Source: an uncultured Phycisphaerae bacterium (lineage in GTDB: Bacteria; Planctomycetota; Phycisphaerae; Sedimentisphaerales; Anaerohalosphaeraceae). Taken from it: a stretch of 64,000 nucleotides of DNA. The stretch's first letter is position 1, and every line of letters starts with the position of its first letter. Location: the NCBI GenBank assembly GCA_937949545.1, contig CALEDR010000001.1, positions 62,001 to 126,000 of the forward strand, written 5' to 3'. This document shows positions 34,495 through 42,388 of this stretch, piece by piece. The position numbers and the translations under genes were made by a program. The notes beneath the pieces were generated by a model. It was not told the DNA's origin. It worked only from the letters and a program-made list of their open reading frames with translations, and did not search any database.

Positions 34495-34568
<74 letters not shown>

Positions 34569-34638: not shown

Positions 34639-35214
34639 ATGAAATCGGACTTTATCGTAATTGTTTCCGGACTGCCCCGTTCCGGTACTTCCATGATGAT
34701 GCGGGCGCTGGAGGCAGGGGGAATCCCTATTCTGGCAGATCATATCCGAAAGCCGGATGAGGACAATCCTCGCGGCTATTACGAATTTGAGCCGGTCAAA
34801 AAGACCAAAGAAGACCCTTCCTGGCTTCAGCATGCACCCGGCAAGGCCGTCAAGATGGTTTATCGTCTTCTTTACGACCTGCCGGCAGGGTATCAGTATC
34901 GTGTTCTTTTTATGCAGCGGGATGTTCAGGAAGTCCTTGCTTCTCAGCGGAAAATGCTTTTGAGGGCCGGCAAAACCGTCACCCCTGAAGAAGATACACA
35001 AATGGCCGTCTTGTTTGAGTCGGAATTAGCCCGCTGCCGGCAGTGGCTTGCCCGTCAACCCTATTTTTCTGTCTTTTATATCGATTATCGGGCGATGATA
35101 GAAAACCCGCTGGCCCAGTGTCGGCAAATCAGTGATTTCTTAGGCGGCGGCCTGAACATCCAGGCCATGGCTGCCAGTGTCGATCCAACCCTGTATCGGA
35201 ACCGGAGCTCTTAA
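34639..35214 (+). CDS. Sulfotransferase-like P-loop protein
   Basis: 191 residues. G-L-P-R-S-G-T-S-M-M near residue 11 is the 5'-phosphosulfate loop of the sulfotransferase family. F-M-Q-R-D-V-Q-E-V-L-A-S near 94 contains the 3'-phosphate-binding Arg and Ser region. The C-terminal Y-I-D-Y-R-A-M-I-E-N-P followed by I-S-D-F-L-G is also typical. The protein is shorter than the usual 250-300 residues, lacking part of the acceptor-binding region. Sulfation of a small molecule or glycan is possible; the substrate is unknown. It converges with the minus-strand operon, with 2 bp between stop codons. Confidence 0.7.
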   Translation: MKSDFIVIVSGLPRSGTSMMMRALEAGGIPILADHIRKPDEDNPRGYYEFEPVKKTKEDPSWLQHAPGKAVKMVYRLLYDLPAGYQYRVLFMQRDVQEVLASQRKMLLRAGKTVTPEEDTQMAVLFESELARCRQWLARQPYFSVFYIDYRAMIENPLAQCRQISDFLGGGLNIQAMAASVDPTLYRNRSS

Positions 35215-35216
35215 GC

Positions 35217-36824
35217 TTAGAGAACTTGTTTGAGAGTATCCAAAAGCGGACGCAACCGGCTTTGGGAAACAGGGCTCATCAGGCAAATCTGTATCCAGTT
35301 TCTCTCCAGAAGATAACGGCTTTCATAACTGACCCAGAACCCGGCTTTTTTCAAGTGGTCTCCAATTGTTCGGGAATCGTGCGGTTTCTGTAGGGGCAGG
35401 GTCAGAATTCCCGGGCAGGCTTTTTCCTCCGGGACGAGGGGGAACAATCCCGAACCGGATAATTTTTTTCTAAGCCACCGGTCCAGCGAAGCAATCTGTG
35501 AAAAACGACACGGATAATCACATTCATTTAATGCCGTTGCTAAGGCCTTTACCCAATTGGATGCAATTGTAAACGGCACACCGTCGGCCTGTTCATAAGC
35601 GTATAAGTCTAAATAAGCCGGAAGCGGCCTGCTAGGAGGGGTCAGAGTATGGTTATAAAAAACCAGTGCCAGTCCTGCCGCAGAACGAAGGCCTTTTGAA
35701 CTGCAGGCCGAGGCCAGATAAACGTCGCTCAAATCGAGAGGTACATTGCCCACTGCACTGATGCAGTCCAGACAAAGGTGCAGACGATACCGGCCGGCAA
35801 GGCCTTTCAGCAGGGTCAGGTCATTCAGCATTCCTGTAGAGGTTTCACAGCAGACAGCCCATATCCATGTCAGAGTTGGAATCTGCTCAATCGTTTGGCG
35901 AAGAATTTGGTCCTCAAAAGCATTTCCCCATGGCAGCCGCAGTGTTTCAAAGTCCAACCCAAACCTGCAGGCCTGATGGATTAGTCGCTCTCCAAATTCT
36001 CCGTTGGACAAAATCAGCCCTCGTCCGGGCAACAGCGTCAGCTGCGCGGCGACAGTTTCGTTGGCCAATGTGCCCGAGCCGGTCATAATTTGGACGGATT
36101 TTGCACCCACTAATTTTGTGAGCAGCTCCTGTGTTTGCCGATGCAGTTGAAGATATTCTTTGCTCCGATGAGAAATCGGAGGCGATGCCAGGGCATCCCG
36201 GACGGTCCTGGACAGTTCTACCGGGCCCGGAAGCAGATTGACTGGGACAAGATTTTGTGGAACAAACGAGGTTTTGGCGGCGGCGTGATGCTCAATTGTC
36301 AGATACATCGGCTGAAAACGGGCCTGCCCGCTGCCGACAATCGGCCCAAACGGCACAAACCCCAAATGCCGATACAGCGGCACCTGATTTAGGTACCCGC
36401 TTATTAAAGCTGTATCGTATCCTTGTTCGAGACAATAGGCGGTTGTCTTGGCCAACAGTCCGCGAATGATTCGGCTGCGGCGGACATCTTTTTTGACAGC
36501 CAGCAGCCGCACCTCACAGGGTGTCAATCCCTCCGGAAGATAGGCATCCAGATTCTCCAGTTTTTTGTCGAGCGAAAAAGGCCGTTTTCCCCGAACGGCC
36601 AGCATTCCGAGCACCTGCTGTTCTTTTGTACAGATTATGTATGTGTTTTCGTCATGAAAGGCGTCTCGGAGGATTCGATGAGGATTAGCCGGGTGTTGAG
36701 GGATTTCTTCAACGAAGGTTTCGTAATTCAGCGACAGGATTTGTTCAAATTCCCATGGCTCACTGGCAATCTTAAAGGTGTATCCTTCGGTCAGAGTTTC
36801 GGTTGTGGTTTTCCCCATCTCCAT
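35217..36824 (-). CDS. Fusion of GNAT (N-acyl amino acid synthase-like) and class V aminotransferase
   Basis: 535 residues from the ATG at 36824, 9 bases after GAGGGAG; longer in-frame starts (36869, 36860) would extend further into plsY. Residues about 15-190 are a GNAT-fold domain resembling FeeM-type N-acyl amino acid synthases, with N-Y-E-T-F-V-E-E near the start, E-V-R-L-L-A-V near residue 104, and Y-R-H-L-G-F at the end. Residues about 200-535 are a class V PLP aminotransferase of the alanine-glyoxylate / aminoethylphosphonate type, with L-L-P-G-P-V-E, G-S-G-T-L-A-N-E and the PLP Lys in S-S-K-G-L near residue 377. The fusion suggests that a transaminated amino compound is then acylated, or the reverse. 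It overlaps plsY by 53 bp. Product unknown. Confidence 0.75.
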   Translation of the reverse strand: MEMGKTTTETLTEGYTFKIASEPWEFEQILSLNYETFVEEIPQHPANPHRILRDAFHDENTYIICTKEQQVLGMLAVRGKRPFSLDKKLENLDAYLPEGLTPCEVRLLAVKKDVRRSRIIRGLLAKTTAYCLEQGYDTALISGYLNQVPLYRHLGFVPFGPIVGSGQARFQPMYLTIEHHAAAKTSFVPQNLVPVNLLPGPVELSRTVRDALASPPISHRSKEYLQLHRQTQELLTKLVGAKSVQIMTGSGTLANETVAAQLTLLPGRGLILSNGEFGERLIHQACRFGLDFETLRLPWGNAFEDQILRQTIEQIPTLTWIWAVCCETSTGMLNDLTLLKGLAGRYRLHLCLDCISAVGNVPLDLSDVYLASACSSKGLRSAAGLALVFYNHTLTPPSRPLPAYLDLYAYEQADGVPFTIASNWVKALATALNECDYPCRFSQIASLDRWLRKKLSGSGLFPLVPEEKACPGILTLPLQKPHDSRTIGDHLKKAGFWVSYESRYLLERNWIQICLMSPVSQSRLRPLLDTLKQVL

Positions 36825-37419
36825 AAGCTCCGTCTCCCTCTGAACTATCTTTGCCTGCATAGAGTGCAATCAGATTCTTCCAATGGGCCAGCAGAATCAG
36901 GACCGCCCACACAGTCAAAATTCCTGTAGTGCTTCTCGGCAGCCCCAGCAGAAAGGAAAGAGCCGGGACTGTGAGCACCGAAATCATTCCGCTAAGCATA
37001 TATCGTCGGCTCAGGAAATACAAGACCGCACATACCAGAAAACTTCCTATGGTTATCCGCCAGTCAAAGACCAGAAGGGCCCCTAAAGATACCCCGAGCC
37101 CTTTTCCTCCGCGAAACCCAAGCTGAATCGGGAAGATATGTCCGACGGCGGCGGCCAGGACGCAGAGAGTTTTTCCAGGAGTTGTCCCCCCCAGACACCA
37201 GGCGGCTGAACTTGCCGCCGCTCCCCGCAGTATATCCGCGGCCAGCACAACCCAAAACCCCCATCGTCCCAAAAGCCGCCCGACGTTCCGCGCGCCGGCC
37301 GAACCGCTGCCGATGGTGCGGATATCCTGTCCGGTCTTCCATCGCACCAGATAGTACCCTGATACCAGACAGCCCAGTCCATAACTGAGCAAAACCGCCA
37401 AGACGTTTTTCCACAGCAT
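36772..37419 (-). CDS. plsY: Acyl-phosphate:glycerol-3-phosphate acyltransferase
   Basis: 215 residues, five predicted membrane helices. PlsY motifs are seen: I-G-S-G-S-A-G-A-R-N-V near residue 36, G-H-I-F-P-I-Q-L-G-F-R-G-G-K-G near 92, and a C-terminal H-W-K-N-L motif near 184. It makes lysophosphatidate from acyl phosphate and glycerol 3-phosphate in the inner membrane. It starts 2 bp behind rlmN, and its hydrophilic tail (about the last 25 residues) is encoded over the start of the fusion gene. Confidence 0.93.
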   Translation of the reverse strand: MLWKNVLAVLLSYGLGCLVSGYYLVRWKTGQDIRTIGSGSAGARNVGRLLGRWGFWVVLAADILRGAAASSAAWCLGGTTPGKTLCVLAAAVGHIFPIQLGFRGGKGLGVSLGALLVFDWRITIGSFLVCAVLYFLSRRYMLSGMISVLTVPALSFLLGLPRSTTGILTVWAVLILLAHWKNLIALYAGKDSSEGDGAYGDGENHNRNSDRRIHL

Positions 37420-37421
37420 TG

Positions 37422-38471
37422 TCAGCCGCTTCCTTTCTTGTCCAGTCCTTTCAGCCGCTGGGCTCCCAGTTGTCCGCAGGCCGCCAGAATCGAGCGGCCC
37501 CGCTTAAACCGAATCACGGTCTCGATTCCCGCCTTTTCCAGTCGGGCGGCGAATGCTTTGATACGGGCCGGAGGACTGCCTTCATACGGACAGCCTGGAT
37601 AGGGATTCATTTCAATCAGGTTTACGTTGGCTTTCAGATTCCCTATCAGACGAATCAGCAGGGTTGCGTCTTCGTGTGAGTCGTTGATGTCTTTCAGCAT
37701 ACAGTATTCAAAGGTCACCCGTCTGCCGGTCTGTTTCTGGTAATAACGAACGGCCTCCATCAGCCGTTTGAGCGGTTCTTTGCGGGCAATCGGCATCAAT
37801 TCCCGCCGCAGGAGATCATCTGCGGAATGCAGCGAAATCGCCAGCCGAGGCTGAACGGTCCATTCCGTCATCCGACGAATCTGTTCCGAAAGACCGCACG
37901 TAGAGACAGTGATGTGCCGCATTCCAAGAAGCCGCCCTTTTTCATCGTGCAGAATCTCCAGCGACCGGGCTGTTTCTTCCGGATTATCCAGCGGCTCGCC
38001 CATCCCCATATACACCAGATTGTCTGCGGGCCCTGATTCCGATTCAATCTGATAAACCTGCTCGACAATCTCCGCCGCGGTGAGGTTTCGTTCAAACGGA
38101 ATCCGACCGGTTGCGCAGAAACGGCACCCCATCCGGCAGCCCGACTGTGTCGATAAGCACAGCGTGACCCGGCCCTTATCCGTCAGCCGTACGCTTTCTA
38201 TCGAGCTGCCGTCCGACAGGCCGAACAAATACTTAACGGTTCCATCCGGGTCCGTCTGCTTTTCAAGAAGAGTCAGCGAGGATATCCGGTATCCAGAATC
38301 TGCTAACTGCTTGCGAAAGGATTTCGATAGGGGAGTAATCTGGTCAAGATTTGAGATATGTTTCTGGTGGATAAAGGTAAAAAGATAGTCTGCACAGTAC
38401 GCTTTCTGGCCGAACCCGACAACCAGCTCGGTTAACTCCACCCGTGTTTTATTCTTCAAATCATAATCCAT
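37422..38471 (-). CDS. rlmN: 23S rRNA (adenine-2503-C2) methyltransferase
   Basis: 349 residues from the ATG at 38471 (a TTG at 38480 is an alternative). The radical SAM cluster motif C-R-M-G-C-R-F-C lies near residue 110. Y-M-G-M-G-E-P-L-D-N follows near 150, along with S-L-H-S-A-D-D and a C-terminal Cys in I-L-A-A-C-G-Q-L-G that fits the methyl-carrying cysteine. It methylates A2503 of 23S rRNA, and in related enzymes A37 of some tRNAs. A TATATT sequence ends 7 bases before the ATG, so the mRNA might be leaderless, though no good -35 is seen. Confidence 0.95.
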   Translation of the reverse strand: MDYDLKNKTRVELTELVVGFGQKAYCADYLFTFIHQKHISNLDQITPLSKSFRKQLADSGYRISSLTLLEKQTDPDGTVKYLFGLSDGSSIESVRLTDKGRVTLCLSTQSGCRMGCRFCATGRIPFERNLTAAEIVEQVYQIESESGPADNLVYMGMGEPLDNPEETARSLEILHDEKGRLLGMRHITVSTCGLSEQIRRMTEWTVQPRLAISLHSADDLLRRELMPIARKEPLKRLMEAVRYYQKQTGRRVTFEYCMLKDINDSHEDATLLIRLIGNLKANVNLIEMNPYPGCPYEGSPPARIKAFAARLEKAGIETVIRFKRGRSILAACGQLGAQRLKGLDKKGSG

Positions 38472-38610
38472 CCTGTTCAATATAGCACAATCTCGTTTTT
38501 TGGGGAATCGGAAACACTATCAGTTGGAAAAGAGGTGTTTTTTTGATTTGTCTTCCAATCAGATTTACTGCCTAGATTAAGTCAAGATCTCCATGAAAAT
38601 GATACGGTCT

Positions 38611-39360: not shown

Positions 39361-42300
39361 TTACAGGTCCGGCAATTCAACGTAGTCATATCGAATCCCG
39401 CCCCAGCTGCGAATAATCTGGATAGTGTTTGTCCCAGCGGCAAGAGAAACCGGTATCGGCCCGAAAAGTGTCCATTGACCATCTGGTGTATTGCCGAATT
39501 GGAAAAACTGATTAGGCCCATTGTTGACCTTCAGATAATCCCCTCGTCCGCTGTAGCAGCAGACGCCTTGTGAACGAACATAGAGGTTGTATATCCCTGC
39601 GGCAGGGGCCTGAACCGTCCAGATAATTCGCGGTGTGCCGCTCCAGTCTATCAGGCAATACCGTCCGCCGCCGGCCGTGGGGTCATTGTAAACCCCGCTG
39701 CTGCCTCCAACCAGCTGCGATAGGTCGGCATCCTCCGCTTCAAACCGCCTTGGATAGGAAAGCACCTCCACGCTCACATCAGCGCTGTTCGATTGGTTTA
39801 TGGCAATTGTCACTGTAAGGGTTAGCAGATACGTGCCGATATTTGAAAAAGAAAATGACGGATTCGGCTCGCGGGGGTTGGAGCAGATGTCTTCAATTTG
39901 CGGAATCGGCTGGGCCGGCCCTGTGTACTGAAGCGTCCATTCAAACGTTAGCGGTCCCACGGCCCGAACCGTCGGGTTCATCTGGACGGCAGGGGTTGTA
40001 CTTCCCTGCAGGACCAAAGTTCGGTTTTGACCAGCTGAAAGTACCAGAGGAGGATTCTGATAATTCTTCACAAGCATCCACTGTCCGGCCAACCAGGCAA
40101 AGTCCTTTTCATCGACGCGTCTATCCCTCGTCCAGTCGCAGGCGAGATTGCCGCCCGTTTGAAGCCATTCTCCGGCAAGGGCGGCCAGATTGTCTAAATC
40201 CATCACCTCGGTAATTTTCACGGCGACATCTCGTTCAAACATCGGAATCGGGCTCTGCAGGATGCCGCCGGATGAATAAGCGCAGGTTCCATAAGCCGCT
40301 CCGCCCGGCGCGCGGGTCAGGTAATAATCCAGATTGTACCAGCCGTCATCCAGTCCCCGAACCGTCAGCGTCTGCCCCTCAATCCATCCGTGAGCGGTTC
40401 GTCCCTCCTGGCTGTCGATGTCATAAATCCAAATCAAGGCCCGTCGTTGCTCGGCAAGCCCCAGTGTATCCACATAGGAAACTGTGTTCGGCCGAAACTC
40501 ATACCGCCGTATCTCAATCCAGTCCGGCCCGGAGTTCACAATCCGAACGATATGACTTCCTGCCGAAATCGGAACGGAAATCTGATAATGGCTTCCGCCA
40601 GCCGGCTGCGGTTGTGAATAGACGATATTTCCGTCGATTGTAATCTGAACGGAGGCCCCGGCCCCGGACACACTTTTAACAAAGAGCACCAATTGTCCCG
40701 CCTCCGGCATATCCACGTGGAAGTAAGGATTGGATTTTTTGCTGCTCCAGGGCGCATGCAGATAAACGGATAAAAAGGCCTGTCCAGTAAAACCGTCGTC
40801 TCTCTGATAGCAATGCAGTCCCTCGATCGGCACATCCTCGAAACCATCCATGAGCGGTTCAGCGGCGATGACTTCATGGCCTCCGACAGCCCGAGGCAGG
40901 GGGGCCAATGCGGCCAAATCCTCTCCTTGGGCGAAAAGACTCAGCGGGAGAAAATCCTCGCTCCAGCCGTAGGGGTCAATCCGATCCCACCACCACGGGT
41001 GAGCACTTTGACCAAGAAAAAAGCCCGCCCAGATGCCGTTGCGAATCAAAAGGCGGTCGTCGTCCATATTCTCTGAAATATTGCCGAACTCCCCGACCAG
41101 CACCGGCTTATGAAATCGTTCCCAAAGAGCCGGTATCATTTTCCTGGCCGTGTCAATCGTGGGGCTTTCGTAAAAGTGCTCCTGCACAATATCAATTTCG
41201 TTTAACTCATACAGCGAGGACGACAGCTGATAGTAATCACTCGTGGTTACCGGATGCCGATGCGGATCGATGCTTTTGATATAAGCGGCCATCTGCTGAT
41301 GCCATTGTCGGACTTCTTCACGATACGCAGCCGTCCACCAGTTTCGTGCATCCGAGCCGGTGTACTGGACCTCATTCCATAATTCCCACGCAAAAATCGC
41401 CGGCGAGTATCCCCAGCGCGCGACAATATACCGGTATTTATTTTTAGTAAGACGAATAGCCTGTGGGTGTGTAAAGAACTGTTCCGGAGCCGACAAAAAT
41501 CCGCCCTCAGATGCATATATCTGGTTATACGGGTTTTCGTTCCAGTTTGGATTTACACGTGTGCTGAAGGCTCCGTGATACTGCAGGGTCAGCTGAACGG
41601 CGATACCGTTTTGCTCGGCGGTCTCGATGACGCTGTCCAGACGCTGCGCCGTCTGCAGGCTCAGCCGCCCCACACCCCCAAAATACGGATGTCCCCGCCA
41701 TTCGAGAATCAGTCCGCCGTCTCCGCTCCACGGGCACATCCAGATCCGCGCCCAGTTTTCGCCGACGCTGTTCATTTGTTCAAAATAGTGCTGAAAGCCG
41801 GCCAGACCCGCCCAGCCGCTGCCGGTCCAGGCGATATTTCGCCCGATATGGATTCGCGGCTGACCGTTATCATAACGGAAGGTCCGACCGTCGGTATGAA
41901 TCCGGATAAATCCTTTGTCTTGCCCAGGAACACACACAAAATGTCCGCCGGTATAGAGCAGTTGAATCCCTGATGCATCCTTCAGATAAATCGAATACGT
42001 ATGAGGACCGACCTGGATAGGGGAAAAACGGAATCTCCACTGTTCCGGTCCCGGATTGGAGTAGGTTTCCGGATTCGAACCGATCACTTGATATTGGCGG
42101 TAATAAAAAGCGGGTACATACAGTGCGGTTGAATCCGGACAGGTCATCTCCGCCCAGATTTCCACAATGTCGGCATCAAATGGGTTGCTGTAGGATGTAT
42201 CGAGGGTGAAGACGGCTTCGTATTTTTTGTACTGTTCAATCGTGTCGGCATTCTGGGAAAAGGCGGTCAGCACGACGGCCGATGCATCGCAGCAGAACAA

Positions 42301-42375
42301 GACGAACACGCAGATGATTAGTCCGCACAGAGGTGGATAGCCGGTTTGGTCTCTCTGATCTCGGCGGCTTTTCAT
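39361..42375 (-). CDS. Secreted multidomain glycoside hydrolase (DUF5060, GH5-like, dockerin-like, PKD, CBM)
   Basis: 1004 residues from the ATG at 42375, 7 bases after AGGAG. After a signal peptide (ending near C-D-A-S-A) come several parts. DUF5060 is at about 35-120. A (beta/alpha)8 catalytic domain is at about 150-510, with the likely acid/base Glu in W-E-L-W-N-E-V near residue 336 and nucleophile Glu in L-V-G-E-F-G-N near 428. A beta-sandwich region follows (about 550-640), then a dockerin-like segment with two L-A-x-x-W motifs around D-W-T-R-D-R-R-V-D near 728-768. A PKD-like domain is at about 788-870 and a C-terminal CBM6/malectin-like domain at about 873-1004. Endo-acting cellulase or mannanase activity is likely; the exact polysaccharide is not readable. 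Confidence 0.82.
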   Translation of the reverse strand: MKSRRDQRDQTGYPPLCGLIICVFVLFCCDASAVVLTAFSQNADTIEQYKKYEAVFTLDTSYSNPFDADIVEIWAEMTCPDSTALYVPAFYYRQYQVIGSNPETYSNPGPEQWRFRFSPIQVGPHTYSIYLKDASGIQLLYTGGHFVCVPGQDKGFIRIHTDGRTFRYDNGQPRIHIGRNIAWTGSGWAGLAGFQHYFEQMNSVGENWARIWMCPWSGDGGLILEWRGHPYFGGVGRLSLQTAQRLDSVIETAEQNGIAVQLTLQYHGAFSTRVNPNWNENPYNQIYASEGGFLSAPEQFFTHPQAIRLTKNKYRYIVARWGYSPAIFAWELWNEVQYTGSDARNWWTAAYREEVRQWHQQMAAYIKSIDPHRHPVTTSDYYQLSSSLYELNEIDIVQEHFYESPTIDTARKMIPALWERFHKPVLVGEFGNISENMDDDRLLIRNGIWAGFFLGQSAHPWWWDRIDPYGWSEDFLPLSLFAQGEDLAALAPLPRAVGGHEVIAAEPLMDGFEDVPIEGLHCYQRDDGFTGQAFLSVYLHAPWSSKKSNPYFHVDMPEAGQLVLFVKSVSGAGASVQITIDGNIVYSQPQPAGGSHYQISVPISAGSHIVRIVNSGPDWIEIRRYEFRPNTVSYVDTLGLAEQRRALIWIYDIDSQEGRTAHGWIEGQTLTVRGLDDGWYNLDYYLTRAPGGAAYGTCAYSSGGILQSPIPMFERDVAVKITEVMDLDNLAALAGEWLQTGGNLACDWTRDRRVDEKDFAWLAGQWMLVKNYQNPPLVLSAGQNRTLVLQGSTTPAVQMNPTVRAVGPLTFEWTLQYTGPAQPIPQIEDICSNPREPNPSFSFSNIGTYLLTLTVTIAINQSNSADVSVEVLSYPRRFEAEDADLSQLVGGSSGVYNDPTAGGGRYCLIDWSGTPRIIWTVQAPAAGIYNLYVRSQGVCCYSGRGDYLKVNNGPNQFFQFGNTPDGQWTLFGPIPVSLAAGTNTIQIIRSWGGIRYDYVELPDL

Positions 42376-42388
42376 GGACACTCTCCTC

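Follow-up and report, generated by a model that had tools for sequence, protein, structure and literature searches.

A divergent PlsY paralogue coupled to a FeeM-like acyltransferase–aminotransferase fusion in many bacterial phyla, and its possible part in a membrane-lipid module

Our analysis of the window (the whole 64,000-nucleotide stretch of DNA considered here, from a 2.84 Mb host genome whose nearest named relatives are Phycisphaerae within the Planctomycetota) finds a two-gene operon on the minus strand at positions 35217 to 37419, in which plsY2, the gene for a second and divergent PlsY paralogue, is followed by a gene whose single chain joins an N-terminal FeeM-like GNAT acyltransferase to a C-terminal class V aminotransferase that resembles PhnW. 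The operon is well supported, and we infer from it all of the substrates and the product. In the reading we tentatively prefer, whose chance we would put a little below even, plsY2 and the fusion gene form a dedicated membrane-lipid module that makes an N-acylated analogue of a phospholipid.

The plsY2 gene (36772..37419, 215 aa; its R44 and G144 occupy the Thr41 and Ser142 sites discussed below) lies directly downstream of rlmN (37422..38480, also minus strand) with a gap of 2 nt, and its 3' end overlaps the start of the fusion gene by 53 nt (36772..36824) if the latter begins at ATG 36824. From that codon the fusion gene (35217..36824) encodes 535 amino acids, with the GNAT domain in residues 1–180 (36285..36824) and the aminotransferase domain in residues from about 190 to 535 (35217..36257). 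The longest open frame has 550 codons from TTG 36869, and the overlap with plsY2 is 98 nt from this start, 89 nt from ATG 36860, 53 nt from ATG 36824 and 47 nt from ATG 36818; we consider ATG 36824 or ATG 36818 likelier than the starts of the longer frames. The first conserved residues of the fusion proteins (YTFKIA) span the plsY2 stop codon, and there is no in-frame ATG, GTG or TTG between that stop and the start of the conserved domain, so the fusion gene must begin inside plsY2, as the original prediction had it. The close spacing suggests that rlmN, plsY2 and the fusion gene are probably one transcript; rlmN is kept as the neighbour of plsY2 within the genus only, and a scan for promoters and terminators gave signal no better than chance. 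Nearby, a gene for a sulfotransferase-like P-loop protein (34639..35214, plus strand), found at this place only within the genus, converges on the fusion gene with 2 nt between the stop codons, a tRNA-Arg gene (anticodon tcg; 34495..34568, minus strand) lies between carA and the sulfotransferase-like gene, and a protein of 1006 aa that resembles glycoside hydrolases, with DUF5060, cellulase-fold and CBM35-like regions, is encoded at 39361..42381 (minus strand).

The best match of the GNAT half is the Pfam family FeeM (PF21926, 34.3 bits against a cut-off of 27), which matches all 71 fusion homologues in our alignment A2 at E ≤ 0.001; Acetyltransf_5, a family of N-acyl synthases, matches 65 of the 71. 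Residues D54, E104, R106 and R115 are invariant among these homologues, and the CoA pyrophosphate loop [QR]xxGx[GA] is found in none of their GNAT domains. The absent loop and the invariant residues fit an enzyme of the FeeM/LuxI kind, whose families use acyl-ACP, and such an acyl-ACP enzyme is what we predict the domain to be. In an AlphaFold model of the fusion (mean pLDDT 92.9, pTM 0.70) residues 15–182 have the alpha/beta order typical of GNATs. Searches of the PDB by fold returned lists filled by aminotransferase matches, and a profile search confined to the GNAT half found GNATs at weak scores only (best E 0.008), with the solved FeeM structure (2G0B) absent from the matches. That no solved FeeM structure was matched by sequence, and that this half also matches GNAT families besides FeeM, would suit a fusion in which a conventional acetyl-CoA GNAT and an aminotransferase serve small-molecule metabolism, with the link to plsY a matter of gene order only; this is very unlikely, however, given the missing CoA loop, the pairing of the two genes across phyla and the co-occurrence of the fusion with a distinct PlsY clade (below).

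The C-terminal half matches Pfam Aminotran_5 (30.5 bits, cut-off 21.5), and the PLP-binding Asp353 and Schiff-base Lys377 are present in 71/71 homologues. Both sequence and fold place it closest to PhnW and the alanine-glyoxylate aminotransferases: a structure search matched 1m32, 7e7g and 1vjo with Z of about 41, and structure alignments to PhnW/AepZ and alanine-glyoxylate aminotransferases (these three and 6pd1) show a common fold and common PLP Asp and Lys residues at 21–27% identity. No model in NCBIfam gives the fusion a name at the model's own cut-off; the nearest, the PhnW-AepZ equivalog TIGR03301, gives 135.6 bits against 360.8, and the PhnW equivalog TIGR02326 gives 82.3 against 400.8. 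These relatives differ from the fusion in having a substrate-binding Arg in the FRIGxxG motif, at which all 71 homologues have Gln (Gln512); the corresponding residue of alanine-glyoxylate aminotransferase, Arg360, binds the substrate carboxylate (PMC9340776). The retained PLP residues and the Gln in place of Arg together indicate a domain that, from its sequence, looks active and has unusual substrate recognition; it would not recognise a simple amino acid or 2-aminoethylphosphonate by the customary contacts. With Gln at the site of the carboxylate-binding Arg, an alpha-amino acid bound in the canonical manner is improbable as the amine, and the change is compatible with several substrates that are not amino acids. 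The original prediction of a minus-strand chain carrying a FeeM-like acyltransferase, as opposed to an ordinary acetyl-CoA GNAT, together with a class V PLP aminotransferase is thus borne out in both halves, and its placement at 35217–37419 was right.

The closeness to PhnW-AepZ is the one point that would favour a phosphonolipid pathway, in which the PhnW-like domain makes 2-aminoethylphosphonate that is then N-acylated, but the score is far under the PhnW cut-off, the substrate Arg is replaced, and no phosphonate genes accompany the fusion: PEP mutase at or above the family cut-off of 320 bits was found in none of the fusion-bearing relatives. One fusion genome (G218) has a sub-threshold match of 75 bits, which is likely another member of the PEP mutase enzyme superfamily. 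PEP mutases above the cut-off occur in three fusion-free genomes (G247, G057 and G246), and a fourth genome without the fusion (G216) has a match of 213 bits. On the absence of PEP mutase (the single sub-threshold match aside), the PhnW score and the Arg-to-Gln change we rejected the phosphonate route, which seems extremely improbable.

The window plsY2 product is a clear member of the PlsY family (PF02660, 113.8 bits against a cut-off of 24.1), its model matches PlsY structures (5xj6, TMq 0.78), and it falls under the cut-off of the equivalog model TIGR00023 (110.9 against 137.2). Nearly all of the 59 relatives that we compared have one housekeeping-type PlsY per genome, which scores about 165–190 bits. 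A second PlsY (106–136 bits) stands beside the fusion in 19 of the 20 genomes that have the fusion and in none of the 39 relatives that lack it; in the twentieth fusion genome (G222) the fusion is cut by the contig end. The same holds for the 38 genomes of an unrelated Bacilli order, where 23/23 fusion genomes and 0/15 of the others have a second PlsY. Naive Fisher values for this co-occurrence are 1e-14 among the relatives and 6e-11 in the Bacilli order; these ignore shared ancestry, so the repetition in two phyla weighs more. A tree of 80 PlsY proteins separates 32 housekeeping members (PlsY1) from 48 fusion-linked ones (PlsY2) with an SH-aLRT of 99, and in the 16 genomes with both PlsYs the distances among fusion proteins track those of PlsY2 (rho 0.41, Mantel p 0.002) but not those of PlsY1 (rho 0.11). 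The possibility that a housekeeping plsY had been caught in the operon was rejected, as another plsY is present at G000:C17 of the same genome. This near-strict pairing argues that PlsY2 is a dedicated paralogue, gained and lost with the fusion. Two plsY2 frames are extended at the N-terminus (L146:4424-6058, 544 aa, and L158:847-2151, 434 aa); there is no Pfam match in these extensions, which may be merely open frame.

The residues of PlsY2 are given here in the aligned numbering of A. aeolicus PlsY (5xj5), in which Ser35, Arg45, Lys104 and Asn180 form the phosphate clamp, the Thr41 hydroxyl holds the acyl carbonyl and Ser142 contacts the 2-OH of glycerol-3-phosphate (PMC5700162). All four clamp residues are present in the window protein; among 59 PlsY2 proteins Ser35 is found in 55, Arg45 in 57 and Asn180 in 45, position 104 is Lys in 46 and Arg in the other 13, and His177 is present in every one. 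PlsY2 thus shares with the solved PlsY proteins (5xj5–5xj9) their fold, most of the phosphate clamp, the GGKG loop and His177, and differs from them in forming its own clade, in being an extra gene alongside the housekeeping one in most genomes tested, and in two contact residues. Thr41, which is Thr in 32/32 PlsY1 proteins, is Arg or Lys in 48/59 PlsY2 proteins (Arg in the window) and is retained by 11, and Ser142, which is Ser in 31/32 PlsY1 proteins, is Gly in 53/59 (including the window protein) and Ser in only one. Arg at position 41 was reported in 3.0% of 7,288 PlsY homologues (PMC5700162), which may include the PlsY2 clade. These patterns suggest that PlsY2 would still grip a phosphate but no longer read a free 2-OH, as would suit an acceptor with a bulkier group at C2.

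Among 84,980 species scanned, 513 stretches encode relatives of the fusion, and we read the loci of the best 80 of these 513, which are full-length fusions with 45–51% identity across phyla. They come from Planctomycetota, Verrucomicrobiota, Kiritimatiellota, Dadabacteria, Sumerlaeota, Hydrogenedentota, Krumholzibacteriota, Acidobacteriota, Chloroflexota, Bacillota, Myxococcota, Desulfobacterota and Pseudomonadota (phylum assignments are taken from record titles, and since several are metagenome bins single ones may be wrong). At least ten phyla share the gene pair, and plsY2 is directly upstream of the fusion gene in 60 of the 80 loci, mostly overlapping it or at most 30 nt away. Chance overlap of the two genes was rejected on this conservation and on the co-occurrence in the Bacilli order. 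The original prediction had hung on a conserved link with plsY, and the link is indeed conserved; its outline of a FeeM-like GNAT, an aminotransferase and a plsY partner was right, and what needed refining is the identity of the partner, which is a dedicated paralogue, distinct from the housekeeping plsY and changed at residues that contact the acceptor and the donor.

The pairing has exceptions. A full-length fusion was found in about 49 of 398 genomes in the Bacilli sample, all of 2.7 Mb or more, and among 30 Bacilli loci read 18 have an adjacent plsY2, some of these highly divergent (63–105 bits). Fourteen fusion genomes that lack an adjacent plsY2 carry a single PlsY at most. At seven Bacilli loci (L224, L227–L229, L231, L233 and L234) the fusion gene follows one for a DAO-type FAD oxidoreductase and faces that for an HTH-TPR regulator, with no plsY. 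The function of the fusion, whatever it is, does not depend on PlsY2, because the fusion occurs without this partner in those fourteen genomes and the DAO-linked Bacilli. More distant fusions (L086–L088, 30–38% identity) have neither plsY nor shared lipid genes nearby. In two other Bacilli genomes the fusion is split by a frame change, possibly through decay (G516:C1:126114-127513), or cut at a contig end (G643:C69:6-479). Such independence, and the FeeM match in every aligned homologue, are what one would expect if the fusion made an N-acylated amine or amino acid that is soluble or excreted and acts as a signal or surfactant, while PlsY2 tuned the shared acyl pool by making ordinary lysophosphatidic acid. 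We think this unlikely; a PlsY that tunes a pool need not lose the serine that contacts the 2-OH together with Thr41, nor need it come and go with the fusion.

The neighbouring genes bear on the membrane-lipid module that we prefer. In several loci from Planctomycetota and two from Myxococcota, plsY2 is preceded by a gene for an MFS-PlsC-AMP-ligase (Aas-like) protein (L106:1981-5421, L112:1157-4558, L117:784-4335 and L129:302-3826, and by homology L109, L111, L081 and L082), and at L099 and L102 the plsY2–fusion pair lies between plsC and ispH. The regular partner is of the PlsY type, and PlsC-type genes are near the fusion in some loci only; plsX, whose product supplies acyl phosphate, is present. 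Several Bacilli have a gene of the LTA synthase family downstream of the fusion; in Cytobacillus spongiae, for example, the order is plsY2, fusion, LTA synthase with gaps of about 12 nt and one 4-nt overlap. The Aas-like, plsC and LTA synthase neighbours all point to a membrane lipid. The LTA synthase genes would also agree with a scheme in which the fusion builds or modifies an amine head group, with an N-acyl chain that may be short, and the backbone is a special lysophosphatidic acid provided by PlsY2; the lack of the ordinary acetyltransferase CoA loop in 71/71 GNAT domains speaks against this, and we regard it as quite improbable. The C. spongiae row (L264:5390-9440) is on a 690-kb plasmid record, and in several Planctomycetota a gene for a lipase-like protein (L104:2462-3478 and homologues) adjoins the operon.

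Under the membrane-lipid reading the PLP domain would transaminate a small carbonyl compound to an amine, our best guess being dihydroxyacetone phosphate (DHAP) to serinol phosphate (nothing in the sequence names DHAP), the FeeM-like GNAT would place a long acyl chain from acyl-ACP on the amine nitrogen, and PlsY2, gripping the phosphate of that product, would add a second chain from acyl phosphate to the free hydroxyl. The end product, an O-acyl, N-acyl serinol phosphate, would be the amide counterpart of phosphatidic acid and could enter pathways for phospholipid head groups or anchors. These three steps would account for the presence of a PLP domain and a FeeM-like GNAT in one chain, and for a PlsY that keeps the phosphate clamp but has lost the 2-OH contact. 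A PLP enzyme that turns DHAP into serinol phosphate is already known, namely the N-terminal domain of RtxA (PMC3222319), which we liken to the fusion by reaction and not by sequence, and which lacks the acyltransferase domain that the fusion adds. An N-acyl serinol core has precedent, since gut bacterial N-acyl synthases, among them the Gemella N-acyl serinol synthase hm-NAS, yield N-acyl serinols (PMC11271093), and a 2025 review speculates that host enzymes might acylate these to phospholipid-like species (PMC12594153).

Other known systems share parts of this scheme. FeeM-type N-acyl amino acid synthases (FeeM and Acetyltransf_5; 2G0B) are alike in GNAT family, E-x-R strand and missing CoA loop, but the fusion also carries an aminotransferase and pairs with a PlsY paralogue. 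The aminolipid synthases OlsBA and GlsBA follow the same logic of a GNAT N-acyltransferase and a second O-acyltransferase; here, however, the second enzyme is PlsY-type (acyl phosphate) and not PlsC-type, and there is an extra aminotransferase domain. The Gemella hm-NAS (Cohen et al. 2017) may also carry an aminotransferase domain, and we know of no PlsY partner for it. If it has such a domain it may belong to the fusion family, and the novelty would then lie in the PlsY2 link and the breadth of the family.

Bacterial phospholipid synthesis of the textbook kind proceeds by PlsX, PlsY and PlsC on glycerol-3-phosphate, and a second PlsY clade that accompanies an N-acyl synthase/aminotransferase in a nearly one-to-one manner suggests that a parallel pathway to a lipid backbone exists. 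Such a pathway could be overlooked because automatic annotation gives both genes generic names ("glycerol-3-phosphate acyltransferase" and "aminotransferase class V-fold"; a RefSeq-derived record lists the fusion as no more than an aminotransferase). The broadest form of the idea, a widespread and so far undescribed class of phospholipids in which an amide takes the place of one phosphatidic acid ester, made with the fusion and a PlsY2 adapted to a C2-substituted acceptor in at least ten phyla including cultured Bacillota, is possible though rather doubtful. If true, the parallel pathway would explain why some genomes have two PlsYs, it would predict amide lipids that resist alkaline hydrolysis, and it may connect bacteria of the environment with the N-acyl serinols active on human receptors.
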